Part shown: positions 142 through 16,683 of the stretch, one piece after another
Layout: each line of letters opens with the position of its first letter
Position numbering within the stretch: the first letter of the stretch is position 1
Origin: a virus
DNA: 24,595 nucleotides
Virus record (IMG/VR): IMGVR_UViG_3300020417_000539
Location: 1 to 24,595 of that record
Reading direction: 5' to 3' (one strand)
The notes under the pieces: generated by a model
Database searches by the model: none
The model's input: the letters and a program-made list of their open reading frames with translations, nothing else
What the model was told of the DNA's origin: nothing
Made by a program: the position numbers and the translations under genes

Positions 142-653
142 TAAAACAACGAGGGTTTTTTTTAACGCTTGAGAGTATTTGTGATGAGATTAACAAATCG
201 CAATTAAGCATTGATAATCATTTAGAGGCGGTTTACGATTACGAAGGCGATATGCCTATCAGAATACTTGTGCATGATAACCCACTAACACATCAGATTC
301 AATTCTCAATTGATTCTAAGCAAATGGTGGTATGTGGAAGGAAATACATGGCTATATGGTCTGACGACAAGCAAATGCGAATGCCCCTTCAACCCTTGAA
401 GGCACAGGCATACAAACCACCACATCTCTTAACCAAAGAGCAATTGAAAGGTATTATCACTAACTATTACCTTGCTTTAATTGAAGAATGGTATATTCCA
501 ACACAAGACCAGCCGATCTTATTCAAGATGAATAGAGAGTGGGCTATCAAGTCAAGAGATAAAACACGGTCATTTTTAGAGCAAAATCAATTTGAAAATG
601 ATTTATTTCTTAACTTTGCAGAACCGCGAGAAAAAATAATTGCCTCGCAGTAA
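138..653 (+). CDS. Hypothetical protein
   Basis: A frame of 171 residues from ATG at 138, which overlaps the upstream stop as ATGA. An in-frame ATG at 111 exists but would lie deep inside the preceding small gene, so 138 is preferred. The N-terminal third looks helical (Leu, Ile and charged residues), the middle is strand-like with alternating hydrophobic residues, and the C-terminal third is charged and helical. No signal peptide, membrane span, cysteine cluster or nucleotide-binding motif is visible. A T-rich tract follows the stop, so this may be the last gene of an upstream transcription unit. I do not recognise the family. Confidence 0.7.
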   Translation: MIKQRGFFLTLESICDEINKSQLSIDNHLEAVYDYEGDMPIRILVHDNPLTHQIQFSIDSKQMVVCGRKYMAIWSDDKQMRMPLQPLKAQAYKPPHLLTKEQLKGIITNYYLALIEEWYIPTQDQPILFKMNREWAIKSRDKTRSFLEQNQFENDLFLNFAEPREKIIASQ

Positions 654-663
654 AGCGGTTTTG

Positions 664-677
664 CTAATTCTTTTTTT
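664..677 (+). terminator. T-rich tract, possible archaeal terminator
   Basis: Seven consecutive T residues (671-677) preceded by a T-rich stretch lie 10-25 bp after the stop of the preceding gene and before the next inverted repeat. Archaeal RNA polymerase can terminate at T-rich tracts without a stem-loop. The position, at the end of one gene block and before the only large gap on this strand, fits that role, but the composition alone is weak evidence. Confidence 0.35.
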
Positions 678-678
678 A

Positions 679-726
679 CTTCAAAGGTAGTTAAGGAAAC
701 CTAACTAATCTTACATACCTTTGAAG
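679..726. repeat. Perfect 11-bp inverted repeat with a nested stem
   Basis: CTTCAAAGGTA at 679-689 is exactly the reverse complement of TACCTTTGAAG at 716-726. Inside the 26-nt spacer, AGTTAAGG (689-696) and CCTAACT (700-706) form a second stem with one bulged A and an AAA loop. This is in the 164-bp gap between genes, not in coding sequence. It could be an operator, an RNA hairpin, or a structured replication origin element. The T-tract precedes rather than follows it, so a bacterial-style terminator on the plus strand is unlikely. Confidence 0.6.
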
Positions 727-817
727 AAATAAAATAAATAAACAACAGGCTCGCAGTATCACGGTTATTTCTTTTTTGATTTTAGCGGTTTGTTGAAACA
801 ATTAAGAAGGGGAGAAA

Positions 818-1192: not shown

Positions 1193-1958
1193 ATACAATC
1201 CTAATACTCCGTTCCCGTCTAAAATGATGGTGTTTGCGGATTCGACAGATGGCTTCGCCCCGTTCTTAGCGGGTATGTCTATGATAGGTAAAGACGAGGT
1301 ATCAGAACCCGACCTTCGTATATTCTATTCCGGCACAGACGGGCAGACAGAAAATACAATCCCCGAACCTATGCCTATCGAATGGATGGGTTATTATGTT
1401 GAGAGCCGAGAAGGAGAAACCATACTTCTATTGAGGGTCGCTGGCGGTGATGTGTCGTGGGATAATGTCTTTACGAGTATTACCGCTTTCATGGATTCTA
1501 ACTTGTCTTCGGATCTTGAAACGGTAGTGGTTTGTTCATCAATTATCTCAAGCACCTTTGCTAATACATTGGGTGAAGGAGAAATATGTATGTATGATTG
1601 GGTGGATGATGAAAGAATCGGTATGTTTATGACTTCTGAGGGGTTCGCCGTTGATGGGGTGGCCGGAATACACGATGTAGGTTGGATGATACCGCACATC
1701 TTGAAGAATATTTACGGCTTCAATCAAGAGCAAGGAGATGAGAAGCAATTGTTTTCTATGTTGTATGCGCCTTCACAGACAAAAGATGTTGATGTGGATG
1801 CGGCTAAGAAGATGTGTGAATTTTACAATCAGTCATGGGATTTAGATACTGATATTGAGATGGTTGATGAAGTAGTCCTTGCTTTACTACAACAAATACG
1901 GCCAGCAGAATCAGACGAATTTATGGGTAATGTCTTTGATTGGGGGGAATCGCATTGA
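1173..1958 (+). CDS. Probable PAC2-like (proteasome assembly chaperone-like) protein
   Basis: 261 residues; ATG 1173 follows a clear AGGAGAG box and lies inside the previous gene. The layout resembles the PAC2 family: an N-terminal strand region, a strand ending VVVCSS near residue 120, a stretch carrying GVAGIHDVGW near 163-172 that matches the Gly-rich 'GxxG' turn of PAC2 proteins, a strand, and then DVDVDAAKKMCEFYNQ near 206-221. That last segment corresponds to the family's typical 'pDpkAAxxll' helix followed by an acidic 'lDxd' helix. The protein is strongly acidic. Archaeal PAC2 homologues help assemble or cap the 20S proteasome. A role in taking over host protein turnover is speculative; the family call is from pattern only, and an unrelated structural explanation remains possible. 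Confidence 0.5.
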   Translation: MTVKIVEYNPNTPFPSKMMVFADSTDGFAPFLAGMSMIGKDEVSEPDLRIFYSGTDGQTENTIPEPMPIEWMGYYVESREGETILLLRVAGGDVSWDNVFTSITAFMDSNLSSDLETVVVCSSIISSTFANTLGEGEICMYDWVDDERIGMFMTSEGFAVDGVAGIHDVGWMIPHILKNIYGFNQEQGDEKQLFSMLYAPSQTKDVDVDAAKKMCEFYNQSWDLDTDIEMVDEVVLALLQQIRPAESDEFMGNVFDWGESH

Positions 1959-3286
1959 ATATCTTTAACACGCTACACAAATTCGTTCAAGATAACCATT
2001 ATGTTGATGTGGAAGATAAGTTAGACATATTCATTTGTTCTATTGGTTCTCACATATTCAACACGCTAAACAAATGTAGCCGATGCGACTTCGATCCCGA
2101 TAGCGCATTAGTCAATGTTGAAGAAGGAGATTTCGCAATAGAGAATTGTCCGTTGCGACACGCCAATATGCCGTTTTACACACCTATGGCTCAATTGCCG
2201 GACACGCGCATACACATACTAATTAGAGGCAACAAGGGTTCGGGTAAATCCGTTCTAATCAATCTGTTCTTAGCAGAACGCACAGGACTTCTTTATTATC
2301 AAAACTCCGATTTAGGAGAAGGGTTTAGAACAATGCTTGCCCCTAACTCATTGACCGAAGCAGGTATGTTCGGTTCTGTTGGTGAAGAAGGAGATATTTT
2401 AGGCCGACCTTTAGCGAGGGAAATGTGCGGCGGATTCTTAGGCTTTGAAGAATTTTCTTCCATGTCTGATGCCGCCAAAAAAGACCATAGCCTTGATATG
2501 AAAAACCAATTGCTGACTTCTCTTGATAACGGCAGGGTGCAGAAGGCCATGCGTAATGGGTGGGTGCGATACACTACACGCTACACAGTATGGGCTGGAA
2601 CGCAACCCGCACGATTTGAGTTAGATTCGGGTCTTGACCGAAGATTCTTCATCATAGATATACAGATGACTCCCGAAAAAGAACGGTTGTTTAAACAGGC
2701 ACAACACGCTCAAGCGAATACTTCGCCGGAAATGCGATTAGACATAGCCAATAGAACCATAGCGATTCGCACATGGTTTAGACAACGCATGGAACAGGCC
2801 GTAGCAAATCCCCCGACAGGAATTATATTCAACGATGATGTGATGGAGTGGATTGACCGACCCGATGTGCGCTCGTTTGAGGCGGATCTATTCCGCAGGA
2901 TATGTATTGGTTATGCTATGATGCAGGAAGAATATGTTGGTGGTGGCCCTCTCATCGTATCACTTGACGATGATTTGAGGCGTATTCTCAATCAGTCGCT
3001 TGAGATGAGGCGAAGGGTGATGGATGCAGACCTTGAATTGATACGCACGACTTTTTGGATGAAAGACCTTCCAAAGTCGCAGTTAGTCAAGGAAATTAGC
3101 AGAATGATTACAAATGGCGACTATCAAATGGCTAAGGTGTGGATTGAAGAAAATCTTGAGGCTCGCTCATGGTATATGGAATACACACCAAAGAAAGCAG
3201 GGCGTGGTCGCAAAGGTATTACTTGCAGATTCGGCAATCCTGCCGAGCCTGTTAAGACTCAGAAGTGGGGTGAAAATAATGAGTAA
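1955..3286 (+). CDS. MCM-like AAA+ ATPase, probable replicative helicase
   Basis: About 443 residues. The best start is TTG 1955, overlapping the upstream TGA and preceded by GGGGGGA; a TTG at 1940 is less likely. Residues 41-69 hold CxxC followed by CxxxH, a possible zinc site like that in the MCM N-terminal domain. Walker A is GNKGSGKS at about 92-99. The Walker B region GFLGFEEFSSM (about 159-169) aligns with the MCM signature in which IDEFDKM is usual. A sensor 1 candidate is WAGTQP (about 213), and an arginine-finger-like GLDRRF lies at about 226-231. The C-terminal region looks like a winged helix. MCM proteins are usually 600-700 residues, so the N-terminal domain is strongly reduced. 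It would unwind DNA ahead of the polymerase encoded downstream. Confidence 0.75.
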   Translation: MNIFNTLHKFVQDNHYVDVEDKLDIFICSIGSHIFNTLNKCSRCDFDPDSALVNVEEGDFAIENCPLRHANMPFYTPMAQLPDTRIHILIRGNKGSGKSVLINLFLAERTGLLYYQNSDLGEGFRTMLAPNSLTEAGMFGSVGEEGDILGRPLAREMCGGFLGFEEFSSMSDAAKKDHSLDMKNQLLTSLDNGRVQKAMRNGWVRYTTRYTVWAGTQPARFELDSGLDRRFFIIDIQMTPEKERLFKQAQHAQANTSPEMRLDIANRTIAIRTWFRQRMEQAVANPPTGIIFNDDVMEWIDRPDVRSFEADLFRRICIGYAMMQEEYVGGGPLIVSLDDDLRRILNQSLEMRRRVMDADLELIRTTFWMKDLPKSQLVKEISRMITNGDYQMAKVWIEENLEARSWYMEYTPKKAGRGRKGITCRFGNPAEPVKTQKWGENNE

Positions 3287-5344: not shown

Positions 5345-5761
5345 ATGAGCGCGAACAACCGGCGCATACGCCGGATTGTTGTTGATTTGTTGTGGGAACA
5401 CGGCGAAAGCACGAAAGAGCGCATGGCTAAACTTTTGGCTAAACACAAATCCGTTAGGAACATACCATCCCCGCATTCTCTTTCGTCTATCTTGAGAAAG
5501 AATACGCAGGTTATCATTGTTGGATCGGAGAAAGTCGAGAATGCCGTTGGTGTGTCGGCTAAACATCTTGTCTATGATATTGACCGATACCTTGTGCGTG
5601 AAAAAGAGGACTTAATCTATACAAGAAGTCCGACTGTGATGACTCCTAAGCAACGAGAGGCGGCACAGAAATGTTCGTGTGGTAAATTGCGAGTATTTCC
5701 GCCGTATTCACCCGATATGTGCCTTCATTGTTATAGAAACCCCGAAAACGATTTTGAATAA
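5345..5761 (+). CDS. Winged-helix protein with C-terminal zinc ribbon
   Basis: 138 residues from ATG 5345. Residues 1-80 form a wHTH-like domain (RRIRRIVVDLLWEHGESTKE, then an Arg/Ser-rich recognition-like helix and a wing ending in AKHLVYDI), similar in order and spacing to the protein at 818-1192. Residues 110-129 carry CSC and CLHC, a probable single zinc ribbon. No Shine-Dalgarno box precedes the start, so it may be read from a leaderless transcript; an AT-rich TTGAAATA lies about 25-32 bp upstream. A strong hairpin-forming repeat sits directly after the start codon. The two-domain layout suggests a transcription regulator of archaeal type, with target unknown. Confidence 0.75.
   Translation: MSANNRRIRRIVVDLLWEHGESTKERMAKLLAKHKSVRNIPSPHSLSSILRKNTQVIIVGSEKVENAVGVSAKHLVYDIDRYLVREKEDLIYTRSPTVMTPKQREAAQKCSCGKLRVFPPYSPDMCLHCYRNPENDFE
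5354..5380 (+). repeat. GC-rich palindrome at the 5' end of a coding region
   Basis: CCGGCG (5359-5364), CATA, CGCCGG (5369-5374) is a perfect 6-bp stem with a 4-nt loop. It is extended by AACAA (5354-5358) and TTGTT (5376-5380) with one unpaired A. It lies in codons 4-12 of the wHTH/zinc protein gene, 10-35 nt after the ATG. In RNA it would make a stable hairpin near the start codon; in DNA it is a possible binding site, perhaps for the protein's own product (autoregulation, inferred). Confidence 0.5.
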
Positions 5762-16504: not shown

Positions 16505-16650
16505 TTAGAATGCAGATATTAGGAACGATAAAGACTTGCTTTTGTGGATGGACCGGAGAGGTTGGCGTATTGATGCAACACGGCAAACCAATATGCCCCG
16601 CTTGTTTTAGAGAATTAAGTATGATGAGATGTGAAGGTTGCTCAGACTAA
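16501..16650 (+). CDS. Small zinc protein with three cysteine pairs (49 aa)
   Basis: A 49-codon frame from ATG 16501, overlapping the primase stop as ATGA, to TAA 16648-16650. It contains CFC (13-15), CPAC (32-35) and CEGC (44-47), six cysteines in three pairs, enough for one complete zinc ribbon plus an extra knuckle. The density and spacing of cysteines in so short a frame is hard to explain by chance. Translation coupled to the primase suggests a primase- or transcription-related partner; zinc-ribbon proteins of this size also act as transcription factors in archaeal viruses. Function is not known. Confidence 0.7.
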   Translation: MIRMQILGTIKTCFCGWTGEVGVLMQHGKPICPACFRELSMMRCEGCSD

Positions 16651-16653
16651 CCC

Positions 16654-16664
16654 TTCATATATTC
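16654..16664 (+). promoter_or_regulatory. TATA-like box before the XPF-type nuclease gene
   Basis: TTCATATATTC is centred about 25 bp upstream of ATG 16684 in the 33-bp gap after 16650, the spacing expected of an archaeal TATA box for a leaderless transcript. The start lacks a good Shine-Dalgarno box (only ACGGGT directly upstream), which supports leaderless translation. The gap is AT rich, so a chance match is possible. Confidence 0.45.
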
Positions 16665-16683
16665 ATCATTATTTTTACGGGTC

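Follow-up and report, generated by a model that had tools for sequence, protein, structure and literature searches.

The window analysed here, a single 24,595-base record of IMG/VR, carries near its left end a replication operon that begins with three plus-strand genes: a gene for a winged-helix (wHTH) protein (830 to 1192), a p247-like gene (1173 to 1958) conserved in position at ca. 21 to 30% identity, and a gene for a P-loop ATPase and putative replicative helicase (1955 to 3286) with the Walker A motif GNKGSGKS and ca. 73% identity across the family. For the ATPase no Pfam family scored above the cut-off, and the structure model was too poor for use. The first gene had been read from GTG 818. 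The closest relative shows GTC there, and we therefore moved the start to ATG 830, which is probably the true one. Structure prediction gives the wHTH protein a fairly confident winged helix (mean pLDDT 83) whose nearest PDB folds are 2od5, a putative nucleic-acid-binding protein of an uncultured marine organism, and TFIIE; its sequence is poorly conserved (21 to 43% identity). The operon is preceded by a gap that the sequence-only reading had described as the only large one on the plus strand. This holds roughly: a comparable plus-strand gap at 16505 to 16683 carries an ORF of 49 amino acids, below the size of the ORF list, with CxC/CxxC cysteines and a zinc-finger-like appearance.

The repeats reported for the gap ahead of the operon are present: a perfect 11-bp inverted repeat (CTTCAAAGGTA at 679 to 689 and TACCTTTGAAG at 716 to 726), an imperfect 17-bp direct repeat (CTCGCAGTAAAGCGGTT and CTCGCAGTATCACGGTT, identical at 14 of 17 positions), the shared word AGCGGTTT at 654 to 661 and again at 784 to 791, and the T-tracts and A/T runs. 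The nested stem (AGTTAAGG with CCTAACT) is also there but is interrupted by a one-base bulge. The AT content at 600 to 810 is 68%, against 58% for the whole window. An inverted repeat of equal length arose in 9 of 500 dinucleotide shuffles and an equally good direct repeat in 22 of 500, so that both have modest significance in a single sequence. The repeats alone are weakly better than chance; conservation among relatives decides.

Relatives were gathered via the P-loop ATPase, giving 18 and later 60 related viral loci, of which 57 reach the place of the gap, the other three contigs being too short. Seventeen sequences went into a profile of the region, which describes an element of ca. 190 bp (element 1, 605 to 806 on the plus strand). 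All 57 loci match it on both strands, the opposite-strand match of L087 being weak; absence of the repeats from close relatives, named beforehand as part of the refuting outcome, was not seen. In the window the profile matches 627 to 814 on the plus strand and 605 to 775 on the minus strand. Since matches on opposite strands occur in every locus, the element as a whole (ca. 190 bp) forms an imperfect palindrome centred at about 702. From this centre outward the layout is an inverted pair of sites, which we call X, then A/T-only tracts, then boxes ca. 53 bp to either side. The X sites are the two arms of the perfect inverted repeat, the left one on the plus strand and the right one on the minus strand, and both are conserved in the alignment, as is, strongly, the A/T-only tract on the AAATAAAATAAATAAAC side (727 to 743, plus strand). 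The left box, GCAGTAAAGCGGTT (647 to 660, plus strand), overlaps the stop codon (651 to 653) of ORF 111-653; the window and its close relatives have it in direct orientation, many other relatives in the inverted one. The right box, GCAGTATCACGGTT (753 to 766, plus strand), stands ca. 47 to 48 bp ahead of a TATA-like site. The general viral pattern is GCAGTA-N2-RCG-NTT with T-rich tails, and both boxes of the window conform to GCAGT-N4-CG-NTT. Many relatives have a third, degenerate and inverted box near the right edge of the element; judged from the sequence only, the second AGCGGTTT word of the window (784 to 791, plus strand) may be such a degenerate further half-box.

Element 1 is not alone. 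All 12 near-complete genomes checked have at least two elements: element 1, at the head of the wHTH-p247-ATPase operon, and element 2, which in 12/12 has a divergently transcribed phosphoesterase-terminase pair on one side and, on the other, the portal gene as the first of the capsid operon (the names phosphoesterase, terminase and portal are our reading of the protein sequences). The two face outward from a variable region of ca. 14 to 22 kb filled with small ORFs. A third copy occurs in three records, G018 (50284 to 50457), G019 (68900 to 69075) and G020 (855 to 1029); these third elements are placed in the variable region and show an extra repeated palindrome like GCTACAAATTTGTAGC. The long form of the box, GCAGTANNRCGTTTTATTNTTT, has 55 matches in 2.9 million viral contigs, 54 of them inside elements of this same virus family; the remaining one (L185, 7963 to 7984), outside the family and outside any element, is probably due to chance. 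X sites inside the elements are among the best-scoring places of the genome in most of the 12 genomes, G017 being the exception, and the scores of host rRNA upstream regions (see below) are lower than those of the viral elements. The X sites look virus-specific.

Core-promoter signals accompany the elements, on one side of element 1 and on both sides of element 2. On the side of the portal gene, 26 of 31 distinct sequences have a TATA-like box 28 to 30 nt ahead of the ATG, and in most portal-side cases the distance from the direct box to the TATA is 61 to 62 bp; towards the phosphoesterase gene a TATA is found at -28 to -32 in 23 of 32 sequences. At element 1 the ATG mostly follows the right box by 77 to 80 bp, with AATTA at -29/-30. 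Another clade has an arrangement ca. 10 bp longer, with TTATAA at -28 and the ATG at +86 to +88; the shift affects both alike, so that signal and start codon move together. The window itself has the box at 753 to 766, AATTAAG at 800 to 806 (plus strand; -30 of the ATG, its AATTA invariant in 17 aligned relatives) and the ATG at 830. TATA-like boxes at such a fixed distance before the ATG are the look of leaderless archaeal promoters. A TATA at a fixed short distance ahead of the start codon, as expected of archaeal TBP/TFB promoters, is thus found here, weakly in the clade of the window, where the signal of element 1 is AATTA.

A search for the box in ca. 85,000 cellular genomes gave 16 matches, a single one of them in a record with a Euryarchaeota title (L198, 'Euryarchaeota archaeon isolate EAC30'). 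This match has secY on one side and the 16S rRNA gene on the other, and the orthologous site is present in a related genome. The remaining cellular matches (Psychrobacter and others) look like chance. Sequences upstream of the 16S rRNA gene were then drawn from 70 genomes of the L198 group (loci L222 to L291), which we read as Poseidoniales (marine group II) from one record title and kinship. With the seed genome left out and the viral motif unused, a de novo word count over the 51 bp upstream of the rRNA TATA in 69 sequences returned GCAGT/ACTGC as the commonest 5-mer (52 of 69), placed relative to that TATA at -38/-39 in direct (31 cases) or at -37 in inverted orientation (11 cases). With GCAGT as the sole condition, the conserved bases that follow in the host are C (44 of 58), G (33 of 58) and TT (53 and 50 of 58), spaced precisely as in the virus. 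Shuffles predict 0.1 sequences with the strict box among the 70 upstream regions, where 28 have it; the 20 genomes of the same phylum taken as outgroups all lack it. The host genomes are related to each other, so that their counts cannot be treated as independent; clear despite this kinship are the constant position and the contrast with the outgroups. As a side result, the rRNA promoter of this Poseidoniales-type group appears as a conserved GTCAnnTT(C/G)ATATA ca. 300 to 380 bp before the 16S gene, with the GCAGT box upstream, inverted in some lineages. As a widespread host motif the box was rejected: in 98 genomes it matched 25 times and its reversed control 5 times, and among the matches read several sit in long open frames and the rRNA site alone is recurrent.

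Scanning the viral genomes with host sites gave two answers. A profile of host sites selected by the box, which is partly circular because the sites were picked with a viral-like pattern, had its best site within an element in 7 of 12 genomes; of its top 36 sites, 19 fall within elements, which make up ca. 0.8% of the sequence. A profile anchored solely on the host TATA did not recover the elements (1 of 12 best sites; 2 of 36 among the top three per genome), the mixture of two box orientations blurring it. The distance from box to TATA also differs, at ca. 48 bp (element 1) and 61 to 62 bp (element 2) in the virus and 41 to 42 bp for the core in the host. The upstream region of the Poseidoniales-type 16S rRNA promoter and the viral element thus share a box, used in either orientation at a fixed distance from a TATA, but the host promoter has one box 38 bp before TT(C/G)ATATA, whereas the virus has at least two around X sites at ca. 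48 to 62 bp, and in element 2 promoters on both sides.

The conservation of the element, its copies, the promoter signals, the box shared with the host and the lack of a skew switch (see below) together point to a promoter/enhancer module that probably recruits a host rRNA activator. We consider it likely that the gap is such a module, common to a whole family of tailed viruses of marine Poseidoniales-type archaea and sharing its box with the host rRNA promoter. The GCAGT-N4-CG-NTT boxes are set symmetrically around the inverted pair of virus-specific X sites; in the mechanism that we propose, a host factor that normally activates rRNA transcription would probably bind the boxes, and a virus-coded factor probably the X pair, adding timing. 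The module may then drive TBP/TFB-dependent, largely leaderless transcription, of the replication operon from element 1 and of the packaging (phosphoesterase-terminase) and capsid (portal onward) operons from element 2. The element would accordingly work like a strong, host-factor-dependent and partly bidirectional promoter/enhancer. Conservation, copy number, positions and symmetry are observed, as are the core-promoter signals with their spacing and the identity of the box with a word conserved upstream of host-type rRNA genes; we infer protein binding, the binding of the host rRNA activator included, an activating effect, and the identities of the factors and of the host. With less assurance, though still on balance, we favour the view that the whole virus family has a copy of the host rRNA-activator site, built into a symmetric module that stands at each of the two main operons, the box revealing a new rRNA activator site in Poseidoniales-type archaea and linking the family to its host.

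Whether the gap was an origin or an operator had been considered equally possible. Control of transcription gained support from the core signals, the copies at operon heads and the host box, while the origin reading failed in its skew test and the element proved not to be unique. As an origin, perhaps with a promoter function as well, the element would provide two or three origins per genome, its boxes and X sites binding an initiator and its AT-rich tracts unwinding. Dyad symmetry, repeated sites, AT-rich tracts and a place ahead of replication genes speak for this; an AT-rich region with repeated inverted sites is indeed found, and is not specific to origins. Herpesvirus oriS/oriL and baculovirus hr elements are likewise repeated palindromes with inverted boxes, at least two per genome and some between divergent genes; they act as origins, and hr also as enhancers. 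The present element resembles them in its repeated palindromes, but its box is a word of a host promoter, and nothing that we found supports origin activity. In 12/12 genomes the GC skew keeps the same sign 4 kb upstream and downstream of element 1, and it tracks the gene strand. In the four genomes examined for extremes, the skew maximum lies within ca. 0.3 kb of the point where the operon arms converge, and the minimum at element 2 in two, which could favour an origin there, and inside the variable region in the other two. The lack of a skew switch removes the main expectation of the origin reading, although a virus need not show replication skew. The flanking box, moreover, matches a word of the host rRNA promoter and not of a host origin, and copies also stand at operons unrelated to replication. 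We therefore regard an origin as unlikely.

A classic operator, at which a viral regulator (the adjacent wHTH protein or another) binds boxes and X sites to repress or activate both operons and the likeness to the host box is coincidence or ancestry, seems to us improbable as well. It draws on the virus-specific look of the X sites, on the wHTH gene that usually follows element 1, and on a second, conserved wHTH-like protein of 138 amino acids (5345 to 5761; ca. 63% identity, in 11/11 genomes). The adjacent wHTH protein is, however, divergent, and its gene is missing in some relatives that bear the element (L063/L095, L072/L074, L073 and L079), where the element directly precedes the next gene; the product of 818-1192, suggested earlier as the binder, is thus not needed. 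Coincidence also fits poorly with the recurrence of the full GCAGT-N4-CG-NTT at a constant distance from the TATA of the host rRNA promoter and with its lack in the outgroups. The product of 5345-5761 is a better viral candidate than the adjacent wHTH protein for the X sites, and a candidate family-wide regulator; we read in it a winged-helix-like N-terminus, cysteine pairs and a cysteine-rich C-terminus. A structured RNA (leader, attenuator or riboswitch), which inverted repeats and T-tracts might suggest, is very improbable, as a search of Rfam gave no match, the left box flips its orientation among relatives, and element 2, upstream of both outward-facing TATA boxes, would be absent from either transcript.

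Regarding the promoter/enhancer module, a precedent in part is the SSV1 T6 promoter, which with the Sulfolobus rRNA promoter illustrates that strong promoters of virus and host use the same TBP/TFB machinery (PMC5123050). That comparison concerns core promoters; what virus and host have in common here is an upstream box, within a viral module that is repeated and symmetric. No published description of such a box in Poseidoniales-type archaea or their viruses was found in a search that left most subscription papers outside. Next to nothing is known about regulation in viruses that infect uncultured marine archaea, and a cis-element common to a virus family and a host rRNA promoter offers a testable host link that does without CRISPR spacers. 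The box would point to a growth-linked host transcription factor, retrievable with short DNA, and suggests a way in which such a virus might tie both its replication and its structural genes to the growth of the host; if so, the host switch for ribosome synthesis would drive viral replication, packaging and capsid genes.

Among known viruses of Poseidoniales, the Magrovirales and Adrikavirales are tailed and have dsDNA genomes of 87 to 110 kb, and the Apasviridae have PolB and oppositely transcribed replication and morphogenesis modules (PMC12999244, PMC13108676). Our viruses are similar in being tailed dsDNA viruses with PolB and with the two modules in opposite directions, and differ in that their longest contigs are ca. 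61 to 72 kb. A phage collection, which may lack the named Poseidoniales viruses, held no close match; the best named PolB match there was HCTV-5, at 24%. The P-loop ATPase was not found in cellular genome contigs, nor in the 98 host-group genomes, the latter searched with no positive control. One of the long contigs, G019 (IMGVR_UViG_3300007514_000005; 72,008 bases), has a terminal direct repeat of 119 bases; the genome is thus probably complete and its assembly circular, despite its linear class.

The variable region also has solitary boxes of the host type, most of them clear of long open frames: in G002 (50570 and 51718), G003 (19478 and 20624) and G019 (56249, 114-165), with further ones in G026 (22684) and G027 (12356). 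Those of G002 and G003 have repeated TTATGTAAC words on their flanks. Some solitary boxes show the host spacing; the one at 56249 of G019 is followed by TATATA ca. 43 bp on.
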